From an uncultured Bacillota bacterium (GTDB lineage: Bacteria; Bacillota_I; Bacilli_A; RF39; UBA660), in contig CANSWR010000004.1 of the NCBI GenBank assembly GCA_947650795.1, positions 1 to 56,229 of the forward strand: DNA of 56,229 nt. The letters are read 5' to 3'. Each line of letters starts with the position of its first letter. Position 1 is the stretch's first letter. Shown in pieces: positions 2,843 to 32,518 of the stretch. A model generated the notes under the pieces. The model was not told the DNA's origin. It made no database searches and worked only from the letters and a program-made list of their open reading frames with translations. Both the position numbers and the translations under genes were made by a program.

Positions 2843-4837
2843 ATGAAAGAAGAAAATATATTAGGCAAAGAAAAAATAACAAAACTAATAAAACAGTTTT
2901 CAATACCATGTATAATATCAATGCTAGTTAATTCCTTATATAATATGGTTGATCAAATATTTATAGGTCATGGAGTAGGAATACTAGGAAATGGAGCTAC
3001 AAATGTTGTATTTCCAATATCTGTAATAGCGCTTGCCATATCACTAATGTTTGGAGATGGAGCTAGTGCATATTTAAGTCTTAAACTTGGAGAAAAAAAT
3101 TCAGAAGAAGGAGCAAAAGGAGTAGGGACAGGAATATTATTAGCTTTAATAATATCAGTAATTTTAACTTTAACTTCCTACATATTTTTAAGTGATTTAT
3201 TAAATCTATTTGGCTGTACTGACGCATTAAAAGAATATGCACTATCATACGGAAAAATAATCGTTTTAGGCTTACCATTTGTCATAATAGGAACCACATT
3301 AAACTCAGTTATAAGAGCAGATGGTAGTCCAAAATACTCAATGTTTTCAATGGTATTAGGCGCAATTATTAATATAATACTAGACCCAATATTCATTTTT
3401 GTATTTGACATGGGAGTAGAAGGAGCAGCATTAGCAACTATAATAAGTCAGTTTATAACATTTATATTAAACGTATTATATTTAAGAAAACTAAAAAATA
3501 TAAAACTTACAAAAGAAAACTTAAAACCAAACTGGAAAATAATAAAGAAAGTTACAATGTTAGGAACAAGTAGTTTTATTACACAAATGAGCATAGTATT
3601 AGTAATCGCGGTAGAAAACAATTTACTAGGAAAATATGGGTCATTATCTTCATATGGTTCAGAAATACCAATAACTGTATTAGGAATAGTTATGAAAATA
3701 AGTCAAATTTTATATAGCATTGTGTTAGGACTTAGTATAGGAGCACAACCAATATTTGGTTATAACTATGGAAGCAGAAAATATGACCGAGTAAAAGAAA
3801 CACTAAAAATAGTTTTAATAACAAGCATAATAATAACACTAACATCATTCATATTATTCCAAACAATACCAGACAAACTAATATTACTATTTGGAAGTGG
3901 CGACCAAAAATATATAGAATTCGCTTGCTTAACTTTTAGAATATATCTAATGTTAGTAATAGCAAACGGAGTACAAATGCCAGCAGGAATATTCTTTCAA
4001 GCAATAGGAAAAAGTACCAAAAGTGCAATACTATCATTATCAAGACAAATAGTATTCTTAATTCCAGCAATGTTTATATTAGGACATTTCTTTGGACTAA
4101 AAGGAATATTATATTCAGGTCCAGTAGCAGATGGAATAGCATTCATTTTATCAAGTGTATTCTTAATACTAGAAATCAAGACTTTATCAAAACTTAATAA
4201 AGTAGAAGAGAATATTGAATTTAAAGAAGAAGTTACAACAATAAAAGACAACAAAATTATTATAACCATAGGAAGAGAATATGGTTCAGGTGGAAGATAT
4301 ATTGGAAAAATATTATCAGAAAAACTTGGCATAAAACTTTATGACAAAGAAATAATATATAGAACTGCTAAAGAAACAGGCTTACAAGTAGACTACATAA
4401 AAGAATTAGAACAACAAAAAAGCAAATTGGATTCAATATGGTATTATGGAAACCTTAATAATAATGATAAATTATTTATAAGTGAATCTAACATAATAAA
4501 AGAAATCGCAAAAAAAGAATCTTGCATAATAATAGGAAGATGTGCAGACTTTATCTTAAAAGATAATAAAAATATAATTAAAGTGTTTGTATATAGTGAT
4601 ATGGAAAATAAAATAAAACGTGGTATCAAATATTATGGCCTGCCAAAAAGTGAAGCAAAAAAGACTATAAAAGAAATAAATACAAAAAGAAGCGAACACT
4701 ATAAACATTATACTGGAGAGTCATGGAATAATCCATCAAACTATGATATTTGTATAAATAGTGCATTAGGAGTAGAAGAAACTGCCGAAATAATATATAA
4801 TCTAGTAAATGAAAAAATAGCTAAAAATGAAAAATAA
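2843..4837 (+). CDS. MATE-family efflux transporter fused to a cytidylate kinase-like domain
   Basis: Residues ~1-450 are a MATE multidrug/Na+ antiporter-type membrane protein with many hydrophobic helices. It carries family-typical segments such as the early SMLVNSLYNMVDQIFIG. A short acidic linker then leads to a ~200-residue domain with ITIGREYGSGGRYIGK, YDKEIIYRTA and IIIGRCADFIL. These are hallmarks of the cytidylate kinase-like family (PF13189 type), a P-loop nucleotide-binding domain. MATE proteins are usually ~450 aa, so the extra domain accounts for the length of 664 aa. The ATG at 2843 is preferred because GAGGG lies 5 nt upstream and the promoter's +1 is near 2811. The kinase-like domain should face the cytoplasm. 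Its substrate is unknown. Confidence 0.9.
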   Translation: MKEENILGKEKITKLIKQFSIPCIISMLVNSLYNMVDQIFIGHGVGILGNGATNVVFPISVIALAISLMFGDGASAYLSLKLGEKNSEEGAKGVGTGILLALIISVILTLTSYIFLSDLLNLFGCTDALKEYALSYGKIIVLGLPFVIIGTTLNSVIRADGSPKYSMFSMVLGAIINIILDPIFIFVFDMGVEGAALATIISQFITFILNVLYLRKLKNIKLTKENLKPNWKIIKKVTMLGTSSFITQMSIVLVIAVENNLLGKYGSLSSYGSEIPITVLGIVMKISQILYSIVLGLSIGAQPIFGYNYGSRKYDRVKETLKIVLITSIIITLTSFILFQTIPDKLILLFGSGDQKYIEFACLTFRIYLMLVIANGVQMPAGIFFQAIGKSTKSAILSLSRQIVFLIPAMFILGHFFGLKGILYSGPVADGIAFILSSVFLILEIKTLSKLNKVEENIEFKEEVTTIKDNKIIITIGREYGSGGRYIGKILSEKLGIKLYDKEIIYRTAKETGLQVDYIKELEQQKSKLDSIWYYGNLNNNDKLFISESNIIKEIAKKESCIIIGRCADFILKDNKNIIKVFVYSDMENKIKRGIKYYGLPKSEAKKTIKEINTKRSEHYKHYTGESWNNPSNYDICINSALGVEETAEIIYNLVNEKIAKNEK

Positions 4838-4843
4838 TCTTAT

Positions 4844-4870
4844 AAAGTATACATTTAAGTATGCTTTTAT
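4844..4870 (+). terminator. Terminator after the MATE fusion gene
   Basis: AAGTATAC and GTATGCTT form an 8-bp stem with one G-U pair and a 6-nt loop, followed by a T-rich run. Confidence 0.75.
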
Positions 4871-4972
4871 TTTATTATAAGTTCTATAAAATGAAAAAAG
4901 TAATAATATATAATGTATATATAAAAAATACAAAATAAATGTAAAAAAATACCACAAAATACAAGATTTTAT

Positions 4973-5001
4973 TTGACATAACATCTTTCTAGTGATATCA
5001 T
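4973..5001 (+). promoter_or_regulatory. str operon promoter
   Basis: TTGACA (4973-4978), a 17-nt spacer and TATCAT (4996-5001) stand about 85 nt ahead of rpsL, leaving an untranslated leader of ~78 nt. Confidence 0.8.
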
Positions 5002-5050
5002 TAACTTGCTTGAGTTTTTTTATAAAACTTGCATAAAAATTATGAATACG

Positions 5051-5068
5051 ACACACCAGGAAGTGTGT
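5051..5068 (+). promoter_or_regulatory. Hairpin in the rpsL leader just before the ribosome binding site
   Basis: ACACAC (5051-5056) and GTGTGT (5063-5068) form a 6-bp stem with loop CAGGAA, ending 4 nt before GAAAGGAG. It may modulate rpsL translation; this is inference from position only. Confidence 0.4.
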
Positions 5069-5085
5069 ACGAGAAAGGAGCTATT

Positions 5086-5502
5086 ATGACTACTATTAAT
5101 CAATTAGTAAAACATAAAAGAGGAAAAAAAGAGAGAAAAAGTAAAAGTCCAGTATTAAATGTTGGATATAACTCAAAAGATAAAAAAAGAACTAACAATA
5201 CATCTCCTCAAAAACGTGGAGTATGTACTCGTGTTGGAACTAAGACACCAAAGAAACCAAACTCTGCACTTCGTAAATATGCTCGTGTAAGATTAAGTAA
5301 CGGTTATGAAGTAACATGTTATATTCCAGGAATTGGACATAACTTACAAGAACATAGTGTTGTACTAATAAGAGGCGGACGTGTTAAAGACTTAATCGGA
5401 GTACGTTATCACATTATTCGCGGAACTTTAGATACAGCTGGAGTAGAAGCAAGACGTCAAGGAAGAAGTAAATATGGTGCTAAGAAACCTAAAAATAAAT
5501 AA
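5086..5502 (+). CDS. rpsL: 30S ribosomal protein S12
   Basis: Decoding-centre protein of the 30S subunit. The conserved core [21 protein letters not shown] and the end [17 protein letters not shown] are intact, with a ~13-residue insertion near residues 29-40 relative to E. coli. The start is the ATG at 5086 (MTTINQLVK) after GAAAGGAG, not the upstream in-frame ATG. The loop that normally reads KDLPGVRY reads KDLIGVRY (I104 = E. coli P91), an unusual change at a position tied to streptomycin phenotypes. Lys56 (E. coli K43) and Lys101 (K88) are wild type. First gene of rpsL-rpsG-fusA. Confidence 0.98.
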
Positions 5503-5533
5503 CTAAAAATATACAAGAAAGGAGTGAATTTAC

Positions 5534-6001
5534 ATGCGTAAAAGAAGAGCTGAAAAAAGAGATGTTTTAGCAGATCCTATATATAATTCAAAAGTAGTTA
5601 CTAAACTAATAAATAGAATTATGTTAGACGGAAAAAAAGGAACTGCACAAAAAATACTATATGACGCATTTAAAATAGTAAAAGATAAAACTGGAAGTGA
5701 TCCTGTAGAAATATTTGAAAAAGCATTTGAAAATATTAAACCTGCACTAGAAATCAGAAGTAGACGTATTGGTGGAGGAAACTATCAAGTACCAGTTGAA
5801 GTAAGACCAGAAAGACAGCAAGCATTAGCCCTTCGTTGGTTAGTTCAATATGCAAAAACTAGAAATGGTAAAGGAATGGCAGAAAATTTAGCTGCAGAAA
5901 TAATAGATGCTGCTGAGGGAACAGGTGGAGCTGTTAAAAAACGTGAAGATACACATAAAATGGCAGAAGCTAATAAAGCATATGCACATTATAGATGGTA
6001 A
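5534..6001 (+). CDS. rpsG: 30S ribosomal protein S7
   Basis: Primary binder that nucleates the head of the 30S subunit. At 155 aa it is the usual length, with the canonical MRKRRAEKR start, [20 protein letters not shown] and the C-terminal [15 protein letters not shown]. It lies 31 bp after rpsL with GAAAGGAG before the ATG and 17 bp ahead of fusA, the conserved str operon order. Confidence 0.98.
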
Positions 6002-6018
6002 GAAGGGAGAAATAAAAT

Positions 6019-8091
6019 ATGGCACGTGACGTATCTTTAGATAAGACTCGTAATATAGGAATAATGGCACATATAGATGCCGGAAAAACTACTTTTACAG
6101 AGCGTGTACTTTTCCATACAGGAATAACTCATAAAATAGGTGAAACTCACGATGGTGAATCACAAATGGACTGGATGGAACAAGAAAAAGAAAGAGGAAT
6201 AACTATTACAAGTGCTGCAACAACTGCGCATTGGAAAGGTTATAGATTAAACATAATAGATACACCAGGACACGTAGATTTCACTATAGAAGTATCACGT
6301 AGTTTAAGAGTATTAGATGGTGCAATCGCACTAATAGACTCTCAAGCTGGTGTTGAAACGCAAACTGAACAAGTTTGGAGACAAGCAAATGAATGGAAAG
6401 TTCCAAGAATGATTTTTGCTAACAAAATGGACAAAATGGGAGCAAACTTTGAATATAGTCTAGGAACAATAAAAGACAGACTATCAGAAAATTCAGCAGC
6501 TATTGAATGGCCAATCGGAGCAGAAAATGAATTTAATGGAATAATAGACTTAGTTTCAATGAAAGCTTACACATTTGATGGAGAACAACATGAAGAATAT
6601 AAAGAAATAGAAATCCCAGCAGAATTAATGAGTAAAGCTGAAGAAAAAAGAACTGAATTAATAGATGCAGTATCTATGTTTGATGACTCCTTAATGGAAA
6701 AATATCTTGAAGGAGAAGAATTAAGTCCAGAAGATATTAAAAAGGCAATAAGAAAAGGTGTATTAGCTGGAGAATTCCACCCAGTATTATGTGGTACTGC
6801 TTTAGGTAATATAGGTGTTAAATTAGCTTTAGATGCAGTATTAGATTATTTACCTGCACCTACTGACATAGCTCATGTAAAAGGTATAGACATGAATGAT
6901 AATCCAATAGAAAGAAAAACAAGTGATTCTGAACCATTCTCAGCACTTGCGTTCAAAGTTATGAATGACCCATTCGTTGGAAACTTAACATTCTTCCGTG
7001 TATATTCTGGTACATTAAAGTCAGGTAGTTATGTATTTAACTCTAGTAAAGGAACAAAAGAAAGAATAGGACGTATTCTACAAATGCATGCTAACCAAAG
7101 AAAAGAAATTACAGAAGTATTTGCTGGAGAAATAGCAGCAGCTGTAGGATTAAAAGATACTATGACTGGTGACACACTATGTGACGAAAAACACCAAGTA
7201 ATTCTTGAAAAAATGACATTCCCAGAACCAGTTATTGAATTAGCTATAGAACCTAAGAGTAAACAAGACCAAGAAAAAATGAGTCTAGCACTTCAAAAAT
7301 TAGCAAAAGAAGACCCATCATTTAGAGCTAGTACAAACCACGAAACTGGTCAAACAATAATAGCTGGTATGGGTGAATTACACTTAGATGTATTAGTAGA
7401 TAGAATGAAAAGAGAATTTGATGTTGAATGTAATGTTGGTAAACCACAAGTTGCTTACCGTGAAACACTTACTGTTCCAGCGGAATGTGAAGGAAAATAC
7501 ATCAAACAATCAGGTGGACGCGGACAATACGGACACGTTTGGGTTAAATTTGAACCAAACAAAGATAACGGATATGAATTCGTTGACGAAATCGTTGGAG
7601 GTGTAGTACCTCGTGAATATATTGGAGTTGTAGACAAAGGCCTTCAAGAAGCATTGGAAGGTGGAATATTAGCTGGATATCCTATGATTGATGTAAAATG
7701 TACATTATTTGATGGATCATATCATGATGTAGACTCTAACGAAATGGCCTTCAAAATAGCAGCTTCAATGGCATTAAAAGAAGCAAAAAATAAATGTAAA
7801 CCAGCATTACTTGAACCAATTATGAAAGTAGATGTAGTAGTTCCAGAAGAATTCATGGGAACAGTAATGGGAGACTTAACAAGTAGAAGAGGGCGCCCAT
7901 TAGGAAACGAATCTCGTGGAAAAGATTTACAAATCTCAGCTATGGTTCCATTAGCAGAAATGTTTGGTTACATGACAGTGCTTCGTTCAAACACACAAGG
8001 TCGTGGAACATATCAAATGATATTTGACCACTATGAAGAAGTACCAAGAAATATTGCTGATGAAATCATAAAGAAAAACAGCATACAATAA
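6019..8091 (+). CDS. fusA: Elongation factor G
   Basis: Translocation and ribosome-recycling GTPase, 690 aa. The G motifs are AHIDAGKTT (P-loop), RGITI (switch I), DTPGH (switch II) and NKMD. Domain IV carries the [15 protein letters not shown] segment. GAAGGGAG precedes the ATG. It is followed after only 17 bp by a small tuf-like ORF, so the normal fusA-tuf spacing is occupied by two mini-ORFs. Confidence 0.98.
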
Positions 8092-8108
8092 TAAAGTAGG
8101 TGATTAAG

Positions 8109-8288
8109 GTGGAAAGAGAAAAGTTTGACAATACAAAATTAACAATAAGTTTGTTAGAAAATCTTAAAAATTATTCATTTTACGCTTCTGAGTTACAAAG
8201 ACTATTAAAAGAAGAATTAATGAATAAAAGAATTAAGGGTGAAGGAAAACAGAACTCTTTAAACCTTAAACCATCAAAATCAGTATAA
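8109..8288 (+). CDS. 59-aa ORF with an EF-Tu-like N-terminus
   Basis: The start is a GTG at 8109 with AGGTGA five nt upstream. The first ten residues, MEREKFDNTK, closely match the EF-Tu start of this genome ([10 protein letters not shown]), but the rest (SLLENLKNYSFYASELQRLL) has no EF-Tu likeness. It is predicted to be helical, soluble and basic at the C-terminus. It lies between fusA and the next EF-Tu-like fragment and is probably co-transcribed with both. It could be a decayed tuf copy or a small functional protein. Confidence 0.55.
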   Translation: MEREKFDNTKLTISLLENLKNYSFYASELQRLLKEELMNKRIKGEGKQNSLNLKPSKSV

Positions 8289-8302
8289 GGAGGTTAAAAT
8301 AG

Positions 8303-8491
8303 ATGGAAGATAAAAAACATAGTTCAAAACCACATATTATTATTGGTACTATTGGACATATAGACCACGGTAAAACGACCTTAACTGAAGCAATAGAAAA
8401 ATATTTGCAAAATAGTCAAAAAGCAAGTGAAATTTCTAAAGATAATAAACAAAAAGGACTTACTTTAAAAATTGATAAAAATAAAAGATAG
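8303..8491 (+). CDS. Mini EF-Tu: 62-aa protein with the EF-Tu P-loop only
   Basis: Residues 8-31 ([20 protein letters not shown]) align with the N-terminus of EF-Tu including the GHIDHGKT nucleotide-binding loop. A degenerate switch-I-like KQKGLTLKI follows, and the ORF then stops. DxxG, NKxD and domains II-III are absent. AAGGAGG, overlapping the end of the previous ORF, gives a strong ribosome binding site. High nucleotide identity to the start of tuf (8581) shows common origin by partial duplication. It is either a remnant or a deliberately short P-loop peptide. Confidence 0.65.
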
Positions 8492-8519
8492 AAAATATTG
8501 AAAAAAATTCATTTAATGC

Positions 8520-8548
8520 TTGCAAAAGTTAGAAGTATTAGATAAAAT
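8520..8548 (+). promoter_or_regulatory. Dedicated tuf promoter
   Basis: TTGCAA (8520-8525), a 17-nt spacer and TAAAAT (8543-8548) lie 32 nt before the tuf start codon, allowing tuf transcription independent of rpsL-fusA. Confidence 0.7.
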
Positions 8549-8580
8549 TAGAATGTATACAAAAAAGGAGGAAATACAAA

Positions 8581-9750
8581 ATGGCAAGAGAAAAATTTGA
8601 TCGTTCAAAACCACATGTTAACATTGGTACAATTGGACACGTAGACCACGGTAAAACAACTTTAACTGCGGCTATAACTAAATTATATGGAGAATTCGTT
8701 GCTTACGAAAACATCGATAAAGCTCCAGAAGAAAGAGAAAGAGGAATAACTATCAACACATCTCATGTTGAATACGAAACTGAGAAAAGACATTATGCTC
8801 ACGTTGATTGTCCTGGACACGCAGACTATGTTAAAAATATGATAACAGGTGCTGCTCAAATGGATGGTGCTATTCTAGTAGTTAGTGCTACAGATGGTGC
8901 TATGCCTCAAACTAGAGAGCACATTCTATTATCAAGACAAGTTGGTGTACCTAAAATGTGTGTATTCATCAACAAATGTGATATGGTTGATGATTCTGAA
9001 CTAGTAGATCTAGTTGAAATGGAAGTTAGAGAATTACTAACTGAATACGGATTCGATGGAGACAACACTCCAGTAGTTAGAGGATCAGCTCTTAAAGCAA
9101 TTGAAGGAGACGCTAACTATGAACAAGCTGTTAGAGACTTAATGGCTGCTGTTGATGAATGGATTGATACTCCTACAAGAGATACAGACAAACCATTCTT
9201 AATGAGTATAGAAGATGTGTTTACTATCACAGGACGTGGAACTGTTGTTACAGGTCGTGTTGAAAGAGGACAATTAAAACTTAACGAAGAAATTGAAATC
9301 GTTGGTATTAAAGATACAAGAAAAACAGTTGTAACTGGTATAGAAATGTTCAGAAAATCATTAGATTATGCTGAAGCAGGAGACAACGCTGGTGTACTAC
9401 TTCGTGGTATTAACCGTGAAGATGTTGAAAGAGGACAAGTACTTGCTAAACCAGGTAGTGTTCATCCTCATAAAAAATTCAAGGCAGAAGTTTATGTTCT
9501 ATCTAAAGAAGAAGGTGGAAGACATACTCCATTCTTTAGTAACTATAGACCTCAATTCTACTTCAGAACTACAGACGTTACTGGTGTAATTGAATTGCCA
9601 GCTGGTGTAGAAATGGTAATGCCTGGTGATAATGTTACTATGACAGTTGAATTAATCAGCAATATAGCTATTGAAAACGGAACTCAATTCAGTATCCGTG
9701 AAGGTGGACGTACTGTTGGTGCTGGTGTAGTATCAGAAATCATCGAATAA
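8581..9750 (+). CDS. tuf: Elongation factor Tu
   Basis: GTPase that delivers aminoacyl-tRNA to the ribosome; 389 aa, near the usual 393-397. [20 protein letters not shown] and NKCD are intact, and domains II-III end in the normal [21 protein letters not shown] sits 9 nt before the ATG. Codon choice is richer in C-ending codons than in flanking genes, as expected for a highly expressed gene. It has its own promoter and terminator. Confidence 0.99.
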
Positions 9751-26763: not shown

Positions 26764-28509
26764 ATGAATAACAAATATAGAAATGTCTACTGTGGTAAAG
26801 TAGATGTGGGATACGAAGGAAAAGAAATAAAACTTGCAGGATGGATAGATACTATACGTAATTTAGGAAGTTTAGTATTTATGACATTAAGAGATGAAAC
26901 AGGAATAGTGCAACTTATTAGTAGTGAAGTAGAACAATATTCAAAATTAAATAGAGAAAGCACTATTACAATTACAGGTATTGTTAAAAAAAGAACGCCT
27001 GATATGATAAATCCAAACATGAAAACTGGAGAAATAGAAGTTGAAATTAAAACACTAGAAGTATTAGGAGATGTATATAAAACACTACCATTTGAAGTAA
27101 AAACTAGTAAAACTTCAAGTGAAGAAACTAGACTAAAATATAGATACCTAGATTTAAGAAATAGTGAAGTGCATGAAAATATCATATTTAGAAGTCAAGT
27201 AATCGACTTTATAAGAAGCACAATGAAATCTTTAGAATTTACAGAAATACAAACTCCAATTTTAACAGCCTCAAGTCCTGAAGGTGCAAGAGACTTTATT
27301 GTTCCTTCACGTAAATTTAAAGGAAAATTCTATGCTCTTCCACAAGCACCACAAATATTTAAACAACTTCTAATGTGTAGTGGTTTTAACAAATACTTTC
27401 AAATTGCACCTTGCTTTAGAGACGAAGATCCTAGAAGTGATAGACTATATGGAGAATTTTATCAATTAGACTTTGAAATGAGTTTTGCAACACAAGAAGA
27501 TGTATTTGAAGTAGGACAAAAAGTATTTTATGATACATTTGTAAAATTTGGAAACAAAAAAGTAAGTCCTCTTCCGTTCAGAAAAATTCCATTTAAAGAA
27601 GCAATGGAAAAATATGGAAGTGACAAGCCAGACTTAAGAATTCCTTTTGAAATCGAAAATATTACAGACATACTAAAAAACAATGATAGTGTAGTATTTA
27701 AAAATAAAACAATAAATGTAATGAAAATAAAATCATTAGAAAAATCAAACTCTTGGTGTAAAAAACTTGAAGAAGAATATAAAACACTAGGTGCTTCATC
27801 ATTAGGATTTATTAAACTAGATGAAGAAAATAATTTAACAGGTAGCATGGCAAAACTATTTAGTGAAGAAGAAAAATCAGAAATAATAAATAAATTTAAT
27901 TTAGAAAAAGGTAATGTATTATTCATAATATGCGGAGACAACACTGAGAAATTCCAAAAACTATGTGGTAATTTAAGATTAAAAATAGCTAACGACTTAG
28001 AACTAATAGACAAAGATAGTTATGAATTCTGTATAATAATAGATTTCCCTATGTATGAATGGAATGAAGAAGATAAAAAATATGATTTTACTCATAATCC
28101 ATTTAGTATGCCAAATGGCGGGTTAGAGGCATTAACAAACAAAAATCCCGAAGAAATAGTAGCGTGCCAATACGATTTCGTATGTAATGGTTTAGAAATG
28201 GCCAGTGGTGGAGAAAGAAACTATAATCCAGTTATACTAAAAAAAGCATTTTCAATAGCAGGGTATGACGAATCAGTAGTAGAAAGTAAATTTCCAAGTC
28301 TTTACCAAGCGTTTCAATTTGGAGCACCACCTCATGCTGGAATGGCACCTGGAATAGATAGAATATTAATGCTTTTAAAAGATGAAGAAAACATACGCGA
28401 AATGGTAGCATTCCCTATAAGTGCTAATGGAAGTGACGCTTTAATGGGCTGTCCTAACGAAGTATTTGAAAATCAATTAAGAGAAACACATATAAAAATA
28501 AGAGACTAA
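26764..28509 (+). CDS. aspS: Aspartyl-tRNA synthetase
   Basis: Class II synthetase of bacterial type, 581 aa. The N-terminal OB anticodon domain includes GWIDTIRNLGSLVFMTLRD. Motif 2 lies around FRDEDPRSDRLYGEFYQLD, a bacterial GAD-type insertion sits near residues 290-420, and motif 3 is in GAPPHAGMAPGIDRILM. AAGGAGGAGA precedes the ATG. Expression is under the T-box leader just upstream. Confidence 0.98.
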   Translation: MNNKYRNVYCGKVDVGYEGKEIKLAGWIDTIRNLGSLVFMTLRDETGIVQLISSEVEQYSKLNRESTITITGIVKKRTPDMINPNMKTGEIEVEIKTLEVLGDVYKTLPFEVKTSKTSSEETRLKYRYLDLRNSEVHENIIFRSQVIDFIRSTMKSLEFTEIQTPILTASSPEGARDFIVPSRKFKGKFYALPQAPQIFKQLLMCSGFNKYFQIAPCFRDEDPRSDRLYGEFYQLDFEMSFATQEDVFEVGQKVFYDTFVKFGNKKVSPLPFRKIPFKEAMEKYGSDKPDLRIPFEIENITDILKNNDSVVFKNKTINVMKIKSLEKSNSWCKKLEEEYKTLGASSLGFIKLDEENNLTGSMAKLFSEEEKSEIINKFNLEKGNVLFIICGDNTEKFQKLCGNLRLKIANDLELIDKDSYEFCIIIDFPMYEWNEEDKKYDFTHNPFSMPNGGLEALTNKNPEEIVACQYDFVCNGLEMASGGERNYNPVILKKAFSIAGYDESVVESKFPSLYQAFQFGAPPHAGMAPGIDRILMLLKDEENIREMVAFPISANGSDALMGCPNEVFENQLRETHIKIRD

Positions 28510-28530
28510 CTGAGAAAAGTTAGTTTTTTT
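28506..28530 (+). terminator. aspS terminator
   Basis: CTAACT and AGTTAG pair around GAGAAA, followed by seven T. It begins within the stop codon. Confidence 0.85.
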
Positions 28531-28558
28531 CGAAAAAGAAAAAACTAACATTAGTTAG
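28531..28558 (-). terminator. Terminator of the Xre gene
   Basis: On the minus strand CTAAC-TAAT-GTTAG is followed by TTTTTTCTTTTTC. Confidence 0.8.
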
Positions 28559-28791
28559 TCGACATCATCAAAAAGTTTTCTAATATCAATGTTTAAAGCT
28601 TTAGCAATTCTATAAAGACTATCTAATCTTGACCTATTATTAGACTTAAGACTTTCTAAATTTCTTATGAATTGATGTGTGAATCCACTTTTATCAGCTA
28701 GTTCTTGTGATGTCATTTTAGATAGTTTCCTATATTTCTTTATATTTATTCTTGCTTGATAGTAGCAATAATCGTCATTGTTTTTATTCAT
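28555..28791 (-). CDS. Xre-family HTH regulator, 78 aa
   Basis: A single helix-turn-helix domain (YRKLSKMTSQELADKSGFTH then FIRNLESLKSN) typical of phage-repressor/Xre proteins, ending in LNIDIRKLFDDVD. The ATG at 28791 follows AGGTGATTGATT. An interrupted palindrome sits 45 nt upstream. It may control the divergent region that leads to the double-HEPN gene (inference). Confidence 0.85.
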   Translation of the reverse strand: MNKNNDDYCYYQARINIKKYRKLSKMTSQELADKSGFTHQFIRNLESLKSNNRSRLDSLYRIAKALNIDIRKLFDDVD

Positions 28792-28835
28792 AATCAATCA
28801 CCTAACATTATTATTACAAAAATAATATTCAAAAT

Positions 28836-28856
28836 ATGTACTCGGCCTATGTACAT
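28836..28856. promoter_or_regulatory. Putative Xre operator palindrome
   Basis: ATGTAC-N9-GTACAT. The right arm overlaps a possible -35 (TGTACA, 28850-28855) that pairs at 17 nt with TATAAT (28873-28878), a rightward promoter. The same half-site recurs as TACAT-T-ATGTA at 29281-29291 in front of the HEPN gene. Confidence 0.45.
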
Positions 28857-28879
28857 TTTCTTAATATTAGTTTATAATA

Positions 28880-29140
28880 CATCATCAAAGTGAGATGGAA
28901 ATATGAATGTGTTAGAAAAAGTATAAAGTTAGAAGTATTATTTACCTCCAGCGAAATATTAAAAATCATTTCAATACGAGAGAATATTTTTATATAGTTT
29001 GTAAAGATGGTAAATTAATAATTAAAGATTGCATGTAAAACTATAAGCAGAGTAATGGATTTATTTCTTTTTTATATAAATTTAAAAAAGAATTTAACAA
29101 TAAGAAACGTTGGAAATGTAATTATAGACCTATATAAATA
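28880..29140 (+). pseudogene. Decayed coding DNA in a 540-bp gene-free stretch
   Basis: An ATG at 28904 opens MNVLEKV and stops. A shifted frame then reads NTREYFYIVCKDGKLIIKDC and stops. Another piece reads SNGFISFLYKFKKEFNNKKR up to a stop near 29137. Together with the upstream promoter this looks like a gene with several lesions. The remainder to 29278 is AT-rich and shows nothing else. Confidence 0.35.
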
Positions 29141-29278
29141 CCAGATGCAATAATATTTGATTGATAATAAACATATGCAATTATAAATAACATAATATTT
29201 AGTGCTTCAAAATACTGTTTTTTGTGTAAAAATTTGTTCAAATGTCTTAACAAATATTAATTTTTTTCATAAACTTAC

Positions 29279-29307
29279 TATACATTATGTACTTTTTATG
29301 GTATTAT
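29279..29307 (+). promoter_or_regulatory. Promoter of the double-HEPN gene
   Basis: TATACA (29279-29284), a 17-nt spacer and TATTAT (29302-29307) with an extended -10 TGG. The palindrome TACATTATGTA (29281-29291) overlaps the -35 and spacer, a repression-type position. Confidence 0.5.
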
Positions 29308-29336
29308 ATTAAAAATCAATTAAAAGGGGGAAAACT

Positions 29337-30872
29337 ATGTATGATAAATATGGGATAAAAAAAGCAGCACTTGGAATAAGACACTTATTATTATATATAT
29401 CAAACAAAAAAGAAGAAAACTTTAATATAGTATTAAATTGCTTAAATGAAATAAAACTATGGTGTCTAATAACTAGTTTATGTAACAATATGGATGAATT
29501 ATTTGACATAGTACCAGAATTTGTCTTAGATAATATATTTTCTACTAGAGTAAATAAAGGAGAAACAGTCGAGCAAATATTTGGAAAAGGATTCAAAAGC
29601 AATTTAGACTTACCTAGAAAAGACGAATTTAAAAAAATAAGAGGATTACTTTCACATGGAAAATTCACTTACAATGATGGTATTATAAATGTTTTTCAAG
29701 AAAAATATGAAGCAACATTTGATATAAAATGGTTAGAAAGACTTATCAGTGTAACTTTAAGAAACAAAAGATTAGGTATACAAAAAGGGATGAGTGATGT
29801 ATCAGTAATGTCTTTAATAAACGCAATTGATGTAGATATAAATCAGTTTAAAGAATTCATTGACTTAGGAATAATTCAATTTTATAAAGTAACTGCATTA
29901 TCAGGAAATAAAGAAAGCATAAGCAATGCAGCGAAAACAGAAATGGATAGCAAAACTTTGACATTTGAAACATTATTTCAAGCTGCTATAAGTTTTTTAA
30001 GAATGGAAAAAAGTAATGTTTATTATTCCATAGCAGAGAATAAAAGAGAACTAAAAGCAAAATATAAAAAAATAGAAGAATTTTTTGGAAATAAAATAAA
30101 AGTTGAAGATATGCCAATAACTTTAGATCCTAAATTATTAAGTGATGAGGATTTTATAAATTTAACTTTTAAAGATAAAATAGCCTATCTAGCAAGATCG
30201 ACAAACTTTAATGACCCAATACTATATAATGGAATTATGGTTCAAAATCTTTTAGAAATGTTTGAAAATATGAGACATGGAAAAGTAGATAGTTTAAACA
30301 TATTTACTTTAAAAGAATCAAAACAATTTCTATTAAAAGTATATGCAAACATTTTCTTTACAGGTATAGATGATAAAAGAGCAGGGTGTTTAGCAGAGAA
30401 ATATGGAATAAACGCTAGATATGTATATGCCCAAAAAATATATGAAGAATACCTAAAGGCACTAGCAAGAAGTTATAAAGAATTAGAAACATACAAGGGC
30501 ACTCCATCTGCCAAGAAAAGTTGTTTATATAATATTCAAATATATACAAATTTATTGAGCGAATCAGCAAACAATCCTTTAAATGAGTTTAGTTGGAAAA
30601 TGAGAAATAGCATAGTACACAACCAAATAGAATATAAAGATGGATTCATGAAATTTTATATAACAGGTAAAAAATTAAAATTAAATCACTTTAGCAAAAA
30701 AAACAATACTTGGGGTTTTAAAGATTTTATTAATAATAGAATAATCTGGGAAATGGTATGTACAGAAGACGAGTTACTATCTTTACTAGATGACTTATAT
30801 GAGATGAATGGAGTAGAAGTAAAAGTCAACATTTCAAAATATGTTAAAAGAAAAGACTATTTAAAAAATTAG
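29337..30872 (+). CDS. Protein with two HEPN-like Rx4H motifs, 511 aa
   Basis: I do not recognise a named family. Residues 102-107 read RGLLSH and residues 423-428 read RNSIVH, each an R-x4-H motif of HEPN ribonuclease type. The surrounding segments align without gaps: KKIRGLLSHGKFTYNDG against WKMRNSIVHNQIEYKDG, with the Y-x-DG after each His. The protein is otherwise helical and soluble, with no membrane segment. AAAGGGGGA precedes the ATG. It stands alone between aspS and infC, flanked by an Xre regulator and decayed DNA, as defence genes often are. RNase activity and defence are inference. No CRISPR array is present. Confidence 0.75.
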   Translation: MYDKYGIKKAALGIRHLLLYISNKKEENFNIVLNCLNEIKLWCLITSLCNNMDELFDIVPEFVLDNIFSTRVNKGETVEQIFGKGFKSNLDLPRKDEFKKIRGLLSHGKFTYNDGIINVFQEKYEATFDIKWLERLISVTLRNKRLGIQKGMSDVSVMSLINAIDVDINQFKEFIDLGIIQFYKVTALSGNKESISNAAKTEMDSKTLTFETLFQAAISFLRMEKSNVYYSIAENKRELKAKYKKIEEFFGNKIKVEDMPITLDPKLLSDEDFINLTFKDKIAYLARSTNFNDPILYNGIMVQNLLEMFENMRHGKVDSLNIFTLKESKQFLLKVYANIFFTGIDDKRAGCLAEKYGINARYVYAQKIYEEYLKALARSYKELETYKGTPSAKKSCLYNIQIYTNLLSESANNPLNEFSWKMRNSIVHNQIEYKDGFMKFYITGKKLKLNHFSKKNNTWGFKDFINNRIIWEMVCTEDELLSLLDDLYEMNGVEVKVNISKYVKRKDYLKN

Positions 30873-30884
30873 AAAATTATATGC

Positions 30885-31008
30885 ATTATACCTTAGTCAA
30901 ATTGAAAATAAAGAAGAAAAAGCTATGTCACAAGAAATTATAGTGAGAACACTTACTAAACGTAATGGTACAAAAAATAGAAGACCAGGAAAAGGACATA
31001 GACATTAA
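30885..31008 (+). pseudogene. Orphan coding remnant after the HEPN gene
   Basis: An open frame without a usable start reads IRKLYALYLSQIENKEEKAM and continues to RPGKGHRH and a TAA at 31006-31008. It looks like the 3' end of a basic protein, unlike the neighbouring genes. A 27-aa ORF could start at its internal ATG (30926), but no ribosome binding site is seen. It may be the residue of an inserted element. Confidence 0.35.
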
Positions 31009-31027
31009 TTATAATGGAATATTTTTA

Positions 31028-31056
31028 TTGACTTTTAATATAATTTATTATAAAAT
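31028..31056 (+). promoter_or_regulatory. infC operon promoter
   Basis: TTGACT (31028-31033), 17-nt spacer and TAAAAT (31051-31056). Confidence 0.8.
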
Positions 31057-31062
31057 ATTGAA

Positions 31063-31190
31063 GTAGAAAAAGAGAAAGCAGTGTATCCACACTCACCTGA
31101 CTGACTAATGAGTTGGTAGGTTAAAAGCTAATTTTAACAGTTTTTATTAGTTTTTAAGTGGATACAATTGTATTCACTTTTTATAATTTT
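31063..31190 (+). promoter_or_regulatory. L20 leader with transcription attenuator
   Basis: A 12-bp terminator arm pair (AAGTGGATACAA / TTGTATTCACTT, 31156-31179, then TTTTTAT) precedes infC. The leader segment GTATCCAC (31083-31090) is perfectly complementary to GTGGATAC in the terminator's 5' arm and can form the competing antiterminator. Between them ACTCA and TGAGT close a further stem. This matches the known L20-controlled leader of Firmicutes infC-rpmI-rplT operons. Confidence 0.85.
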
Positions 31191-31206
31191 TTGGAGGTGA
31201 CTAGCA

Positions 31207-31725
31207 ATAGCTAAACAAAACGATTGTTTAATAAACGAACAAATTAAATTTGAAGAAGTAATGGTTATAGGCCCTAATGGAGAAAAATTAGGAGTCAAAA
31301 AAATAGCTGATGCCCTAACTTTAGCAAACTATGCAGGACTTGACCTAGTATTAATGAGTAGTAATGGTATGCCAGTTTGTAAAGTAATAGATTACAACAA
31401 ATTTAAGTATGAAAAAGTTAAAAAAGAAAAGGAAGCTAAGAAAAAACAAAGAGAACAAAACCTTGAGTTAAAAGAATATAGACTAAGTGTTACTATTGAT
31501 ACACATGACTTTGAAACAAAATTAAAAAATGCTCGAACATACATAGAAAAAGGTCATAAAGTTAAAGTATCAGTAAGATTTAAAGGTAGACAAATAGCGC
31601 ATTCTGACTTAGGTAAAGAAGTAATCCTAAAATTTGCAACTGCATTAGAGGAAGTAGGAGAAATAGAAAGTATGCCTAAACTTGAGGGAAGAAGTATGAG
31701 TTTAGTTGTAGCACCTAAAAGATAG
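31207..31725 (+). CDS. infC: Translation initiation factor IF-3, AUA start
   Basis: Binds the 30S subunit and proofreads the start codon; 172 aa. The N-domain segment CLINEQIKFEEVMVIGPNGEK begins upstream of any ATG. The only well-placed start is ATA at 31207, nine nt after GGAGG (31193-31197), and an in-frame TGA at 31198-31200 excludes an earlier start. Rare start codons are a known feature of infC, giving IF-3 autoregulation. The C-domain (VRFKGRQIAH, PKLEGRSMSLVVAPKR) is complete. Confidence 0.95.
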   Translation: MAKQNDCLINEQIKFEEVMVIGPNGEKLGVKKIADALTLANYAGLDLVLMSSNGMPVCKVIDYNKFKYEKVKKEKEAKKKQREQNLELKEYRLSVTIDTHDFETKLKNARTYIEKGHKVKVSVRFKGRQIAHSDLGKEVILKFATALEEVGEIESMPKLEGRSMSLVVAPKR

Positions 31726-31742
31726 AAAGAAGGAGATTTATT

Positions 31743-31937
31743 ATGCCAAAGCAAAAGACACATAAAGGAATATCTAAAAAAGTTAAAGTAAGACCTGGTG
31801 GAAGCACAAAAATAGGAAAACCTGGTGCAAACCATAAAACAGGAAAAAAACCAACAAGTTTCAATCGAGATCATAGAAAAGGATCATCACTAAGTAGTGC
31901 TGATATGAACAGATATAAGAAAGCGTTAAGGGGGTAA
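31743..31937 (+). CDS. rpmI: 50S ribosomal protein L35
   Basis: 64 aa, standard length, with MPKQKTHKGISKKVKVRPGG, the family basic core NHKTGKK and the terminal LSSADMNRYKKALRG. GAAGGAGAT precedes the ATG. It is the middle gene of infC-rpmI-rplT and lies 5 bp before rplT. Confidence 0.98.
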   Translation: MPKQKTHKGISKKVKVRPGGSTKIGKPGANHKTGKKPTSFNRDHRKGSSLSSADMNRYKKALRG

Positions 31938-31942
31938 AATAG

Positions 31943-32488
31943 ATGACAAGAGTTAAAGGTGGAACAGTAACCAGAGCAAGAAGAAAAAAAGTTCTTAAAA
32001 AAGCTAAAGGATATTTTGGAAGTAAACACAGATTATATAAAACAGCGCAAGAACAATTATTCCATAGTGGAAACTATAGTTTTAGAGATAGAAAGAAAAA
32101 TAAAGGTAACTTTAGAAAATTATGGATCACAAGAATTAATGCTGCTTGTAGAATTAATGATATAAGCTATTCAAAATTCATAGATGGATTAAACAAAGCT
32201 GGAATTGAAATAAATAGAAAAATGCTTAGTGAAATAGCTATAAGTGCACCAGAAGAATTTACAAATATAGTAAATATTGCCAAAGATGCTTTAAACGGAA
32301 AAGGTGTAAAAGAAGTAAAAGCACAAACAACAGAAACAAAAAAGGAGAAAGAGACTAAATCTGAAACTACAGATTTAAACTCTAAAACAGTAGCAGAATT
32401 AAAAGAACTAGCTAAATCAAAAGGTATAGAGAACTATACAAGTATGAAAAAAGCTGAATTAATAGATGCACTAAAGAGGGCTGAGTAG
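31943..32488 (+). CDS. rplT: 50S ribosomal protein L20 with a C-terminal SAP/Rho_N-like extension
   Basis: Residues 1-~120 are normal L20 ([52 protein letters not shown]). L20 is usually ~118 aa; this one is 181. The extra part is a Lys/Glu/Thr linker followed by [20 protein letters not shown] then [13 protein letters not shown], resembling SAP or Rho N-terminal-type helix-extended-loop-helix nucleic-acid binders. GGGGG precedes the ATG. L20 also regulates the operon through the leader. Confidence 0.96.
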
Positions 32489-32518
32489 AAATGAATAATT
32501 TCATTCAGCTTTCTTTTT
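32479..32518 (+). terminator. rplT terminator and first copy of a 33-bp direct repeat
   Basis: GCTGA and TCAGC close a hairpin containing GAAAT / ATTTC, followed by TTTCTTTTT. The 33 bases at 32479-32511, starting GGCTGAGTAGAAATGAATAA and including the rplT stop codon, recur exactly at 33393-33425. Confidence 0.85.

Follow-up and report, generated by a model that had tools for sequence, protein, structure and literature searches.

Single-chain HEPN pairs that are free of CRISPR have, to our knowledge, seldom been reported. The HEPN motif has the form R-x4-6-H, usually with a polar residue (N, D or H) after the arginine. It lies at the end of helix-3 and has an acidic residue upstream (HEPN census, PMC3710099). 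Cas13 is thought to have arisen when two HEPN genes associated with defence became fused (PMC12165695), and twelve clusters of the AlphaFold database hold an intramolecular HEPN dimer, two of them linked to CRISPR and ten not (Yoon et al. 2024, PMC12165695).

The protein reported here is encoded in the window, by which we mean the whole stretch of DNA analysed (56,229 nucleotides). Its family is unnamed in Pfam, NCBIfam and PADLOC, and its kind, which is Cas13an-like or AbiF-like, is already known. Compared by description, the compact type VI effector Cas13an (PMC12165695) shares with it a chain of ~430-580 aa, two HEPN halves with R-x4-H and the lack of a large REC lobe, whereas the window family differs from Cas13an in having an alpha/beta middle region, no array at any of its 19 copies and a host genome that lacks Cas1. 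The ten non-CRISPR clusters of Yoon et al. 2024 have in common with it a single-chain HEPN pair without CRISPR, and the window family may be one of them.

AbiD and AbiF (Abi_2, PF07751) are also stand-alone phage-defence HEPN proteins, with the motif RNxxxH, and they are the known proteins that rank highest against the profile of the N-terminal half, whose three top matches, with 213 decoys, were Abi_2 (AbiD/F) proteins. This is a weak profile similarity at the motif only, and no family member has an Abi_2 match in Pfam. Furthermore, AbiD and AbiF have one HEPN per chain and form a homodimer, are ~300 aa long and have the regulatory abiF RNA motif, whereas the window family has no such RNA. 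Two HEPN domains per chain are also found in the dyads of Csx1 and Swt1 (PMC3710099), and Csx1 likewise has a beta-hairpin right after the motif. However, Csx1 is linked to CRISPR and carries a sensor of the Rossmann/CARF type, and Swt1 is eukaryotic, fused to a PIN domain and described as inactive (PMC3710099).

The features of the locus are the following:

28524 to 29260, no strand assigned: degenerate mobile-element remnant (Xre gene and internally deleted transposase gene) 5' of the HEPN gene, recognised by DNA identity to an element on contig C11
28555 to 28797, minus strand: Xre/Cro-type HTH gene of the remnant (HTH_3, E 7e-9; paralogue on C11)
29324 to 29330, plus strand: probable Shine-Dalgarno (AAAGGGGG region), 6 bp 5' of the ATG, a good RBS by reading of the sequence
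29337 to 30872, plus strand: double-HEPN gene with ATG start, coding for a single-chain protein of 511 aa (ORF reading and 18 homologues)
29337 to 29786, plus strand: N-terminal HEPN-like half, residues 1-150 (AlphaFold2 (AF2) model; HEPN_MAE_28990 match on homologue L023)
29448 to 29450, plus strand: E38, conserved acidic residue before the first motif (17/19), its role taken by analogy (PMC3710099)
29640 to 29657, plus strand: first R-x4-H, RGLLSH, R102-H107 (R and H invariant, 19/19)
29787 to 30281, plus strand: middle alpha/beta region, about residues 151-315, with no recognised family and holding F273 (AF2 model, alignment)
30282 to 30869, plus strand: C-terminal HEPN-like half, residues 316-511 (AF2 models; RTasHEPN (PADLOC) and pEK499_p136 matches on homologues)
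30603 to 30620, plus strand: second R-x4-H, RNSIVH, R423-H428 (R and H invariant, 19/19)

The preliminary description had reported an open reading frame of 511 aa with two R-x4-H sites, and both are where it had placed them. Exactly two such motifs occur in this protein, whose composition includes 17 R and 5 H. At least two arise by chance in 0.9% of the composition shuffles and therefore the count is only suggestive; we accept the pair as real because all 19 copies retain R102, H107, R423 and H428. The segments around the motifs align without a gap (97-123 with 418-444), as had been claimed. The Y-x-DG said to follow both motifs is present in the 511-aa protein, but the homologues retain the hairpin and not the DG.

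The 19 copies are the window copy and 18 homologues, with 26-40% identity to the window protein. Twelve full-length homologues came from whole genomes of the same order and two more distant ones from a profile search, and a named-genome scan of MAGs of uncultured Bacilli gave 11, which overlap the first set in part. Across the 19 aligned proteins only R102, H107, F273, R423 and H428 are invariant. Homologues that had lost the R or the H would count against the preliminary reading, and there are none among the 19. Both sites have the R-x4-6-H form with the usual polar residue after the arginine, which at the first site is N or D in 18/19, the window protein being the exception with G. At the second site it is N in 18/19, and L036 has T instead. 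E382, the counterpart of E38 in the C half, is less conserved than E38, with E in 13 of the 19 and D in one.

The motif-bearing domain is internally duplicated. The N half and the C half of the family align with an hhalign E of ~4e-7 (probability 92), with E38 paired to E382, whereas the control with the middle region gave 0.1-0.2. This middle region is a candidate for the sensing or regulatory part. One HEPN copy, L065, has a frame change near residue 304 and could be a pseudogene or the product of an assembly error.

Regarding its distribution, the family occurs in five genera of one Bacilli family, and patchily, the gene being present in 13 of the 385 genomes sampled from the order. No double-HEPN homologue was found in the 8 other genomes of the window's genus, nor any homologue outside the family in the samples of the class and the phylum, and the window protein had no relatives when searched against genome contigs, plasmids, phages and viral contigs.

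What stands of the double-HEPN effector proposed in the preliminary description is a duplicated HEPN-type protein in which both R-x4-H pairs are strictly constrained, with no CRISPR and no conserved partner, accessory, patchy and fast-evolving. We think, with a probability of roughly 0.62, that it is an RNase built as a HEPN dimer within one chain, and that it serves on its own as an effector of defence or abortive infection, autoinhibited until it is triggered. The stand-alone defence role fits the patchy, fast-evolving, single-gene pattern as well as the contexts with TIR and PDC-M26A genes given below. Several findings count against it: Foldseek gave no HEPN match; no HEPN profile matches the window protein itself, and the matches on homologues stay under their cut-offs; the neighbours are mostly housekeeping genes; there is a G after R102, where the homologues have N or D; and in genus g3 the site is fixed and the inheritance vertical (Mantel 0/2000), an unusual behaviour if this were a mobile defence gene.

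In g3 a trmB-type methyltransferase gene precedes the HEPN gene by 4-20 bp, and a convergent sortase gene follows closely. Among 29 g3 trmB loci, 12 have the HEPN gene (including the frame-broken L065), 11 have the sortase gene straight after trmB, and the other six are undecided. The mean identity between g3 species is 48% for HEPN against 80% for MurJ, 72% for TrmB and 82% for the sortase. The divergence pattern of HEPN tracks that of the flanking genes (Mantel 0-1/2000), and since it follows MurJ, TrmB and the sortase we take the inheritance in g3 to be vertical. The gene evolves fast in this genus and has probably been lost repeatedly. Most g3 genomes (L055-L083) have two trmB-type genes with ~45% mutual identity, of which the one at the HEPN site persists without HEPN.

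The position directly 3' of a trmB-type gene, at 4-20 bp, and the vertical inheritance in g3 would also suit a host RNA-processing enzyme, that is, a single-chain HEPN RNase which trims or cleaves tRNA or rRNA in normal metabolism and is linked to trmB in one genus. However, most relatives live without the gene and show clean empty sites, the same second trmB copy persists where the HEPN gene is missing, one copy is frameshifted, the divergence is very fast and the neighbours differ at the sites outside g3. We consider such an enzyme unlikely. A functional unit of HEPN and trmB was rejected as well, because trmB stays where HEPN is absent.

In the tree the window copy falls among those of g3 (support 97/97 and 90/86) and yet it lies at a different site, which suggests horizontal transfer. 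In g13 the gene follows an operon with AAA (PADLOC PDC-M26A, E 6e-40) and DUF2357 genes in three genomes. In L021, L022 and L023 (~3300-8700) a four-gene operon stands directly 5' of the HEPN gene and codes for proteins of 357 aa, 501 aa (AAA, PDC-M26A-like), 361 aa (DUF2357) and 417-557 aa, the last with no assignment; it is a candidate defence module. A type I restriction locus in this second genus, considered from gene sizes, was discarded, as Pfam gave AAA, DUF2357, signal peptidase and an Ig-like surface protein. The remaining sites have topoisomerase, glycyl-tRNA synthetase/RmuC and other housekeeping genes nearby. As to the defence islands that the preliminary description had suggested looking for, there is a TIR_2 gene at the window site in a sister species and the PDC-M26A module in g13, but most copies lie among housekeeping genes.

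The TIR_2 gene (E 1.3e-12) occupies the gap between aspS and infC in sister species G003, and this gap, where the window copy lies, may be a recurrent insertion site. The G003 gene (L052:408-1385, minus strand, G003:C80) codes for 326 aa, with a hydrophobic segment at the N terminus and the TIR_2 domain at the C terminus. Two further observations were made on the infC side of the window. An L20_leader (RF00558; 45.8 bits against a gathering threshold of 58.7, E 6e-7) is found at 31070-31191, 5' of infC-rpmI-rplT, an operon for which an L20 leader is expected. A short open stretch at 30865-31008 (KIRKLYALYLSQIENKEEKAMSQEIIVRTLTKRNGTKNRRPGKGHRH) overlaps the end of the HEPN gene out of frame and may be what remains, at the 3' end, of a gene since lost.

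On the aspS side, the remnant at 28524-29260 is, at the DNA level, 74% and 70% identical to an Xre-transposase pair that is intact elsewhere in the same genome (L089, contig C11, 2713-4266) and is made up of an Xre gene and a gene for an intact protein of 349 aa that reads as integrase-core-transposase-like. The transposase gene of the window remnant has an internal deletion and many stops. Therefore the Xre gene is mobile-element debris, being part of a degraded copy of an element that is intact on C11. The C11 pair adjoins tyrosine-recombinase-like and replication-initiator-like genes. An islet between aspS and infC with an Xre regulator and decayed DNA had been described before; the position, the Xre gene and the decay are real, but Xre as a partner has to be dropped, since it belongs to a degenerate mobile element.

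This bears on the next explanation, in which the protein is the toxin of a toxin-antitoxin pair and the antitoxin is Xre, another small neighbour or an RNA. The window does have a divergent Xre gene 540 bp upstream, and in C. difficile AbiF has an ncRNA beside it that neutralises it (PMC12373285). Nevertheless, Xre as antitoxin is rejected, since the gene comes from a transposon in decay and its paralogue stands next to a transposase that is intact. No partner or small neighbour gene is conserved beside the 19 copies, and no conserved antitoxin gene or RNA adjoins them. The abiF RNA motif (RF03085) is absent and cmscan of 27500-32500 with Rfam yields only the L20 leader. In g3 there is no room for an adjacent guide or antitoxin RNA gene because the gap is 4-20 bp. 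Hence a toxin-antitoxin pair seems unlikely to us.

An RNA-guided, CRISPR-less relative of Cas13an, with its guide coming from elsewhere in the genome or from a host transcript, would agree with the size and layout (429-577 aa, two HEPN and a small middle lobe in Cas13an; PMC12165695). Nevertheless, from the marks of Cas13 and type VI systems the family has the two HEPN in one chain and not the adjacent array. As had been noted for the window, no CRISPR array is near the gene: there was none in the window or in the flanks of the 18 homologues (0/19 copies, 292 kb). The host genome, which is 93% complete, lacks Cas1, only 2 of the 15 carrier genomes have it, and no non-coding DNA adjoining the gene is conserved. 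We regard RNA guidance as very unlikely.

As regards the HEPN identity itself, the window protein has no family match in Pfam, PADLOC or NCBIfam. The HEPN matches on homologues are all under the curated cut-offs, the best one having 23.5 bits against 26.8 (HEPN_MAE_28990), and they fall on the motif stretches. These sub-threshold matches are HEPN_MAE_28990 on residues 56-120 of L023, in the N half (E 7e-5); RTasHEPN on the C halves of L023, L022 and L021 (E 3e-4 to 3e-3); pEK499_p136 on the C halves of L042 and L022 (E 0.0056 and 0.012); and CARF_HEPN on the N half of L021 and the C half of L022 (best 0.0014, on the C half). In contrast to the window family, pEK499_p136, MAE_28990 and RTasHEPN are single HEPN domains. 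A PHROGs scan of the homologues gave nothing informative. Other single HEPN-like proteins (R-N-x3-H or R-N-x4-H) with weak HEPN_MAE_28990 matches were seen in related genomes (L091, L092 and L093).

The AF2 model of the full protein has a pLDDT of 84 and a pTM of 0.81, and that of the C half alone a pLDDT of 86. In these models both motifs lie at a helix end and are followed by a beta-hairpin and then a helix. The N half is made of helices, with the motif helix at 94-106, the hairpin at 110-129 and a helix at 130-145, and the C half has the motif helix at 418-427, a beta-sheet at 431-476 and a helix at 477-490. The helix-end position and, in the alignment, the upstream acidic residue are those known for HEPN. 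A sequence search of solved structures with the window protein had no match, and Foldseek with the full model (PDB, BFVD) and the C half (PDB) found no HEPN structure, all matches having E > 0.06. The four-helix up-down fold of the solved HEPN structures thus gains no support from this search. The authors of Cas13an report the same kind of failure between Cas13an and the known Cas13s (PMC12165695). That the protein is not a HEPN protein, with both R-x4-H conserved for another reason, would explain the empty Foldseek and library searches of the window protein, but it is highly improbable given that exactly the R and the H are invariant at both sites with the usual N or D after the R, that the upstream acidic residue, the helix-end position and the duplication are present, and that the sub-threshold HEPN matches land on both motifs.

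We can now suggest how a single-chain HEPN effector of this type might work. An ancestral HEPN ribonuclease domain would have been duplicated and the copies joined by the alpha/beta middle region. The R-x4-H half-sites of both copies would then make up one composite active site within one polypeptide, as in Cas13, and not through homodimerisation as in AbiF. The intact protein would be held inactive until a trigger, which we guess to be linked to infection or stress, is sensed, probably by the middle region. Activation would then lead to RNA cleavage, perhaps of tRNA or mRNA, and the arrest of the cell may limit phage spread. A bolder proposal, which we also consider unlikely, is that the family is a CRISPR-independent sister lineage of Cas13 whose middle region senses phage-derived or host RNA or protein directly, and that it represents a one-gene stage before CRISPR, which could have given rise to effectors like Cas13.

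Going back to the defence effector, the protein is probably like a miniature CRISPR-less Cas13, that is, a self-contained RNA-degrading effector that acts against phages or arrests growth. The family keeps both active-site halves strictly conserved with no array, obvious guide, conserved partner or adjoining regulatory RNA. If it is an RNase, it would offer a one-gene model for how two HEPN halves in a single chain are kept inactive, and then activated, when there is no guide.
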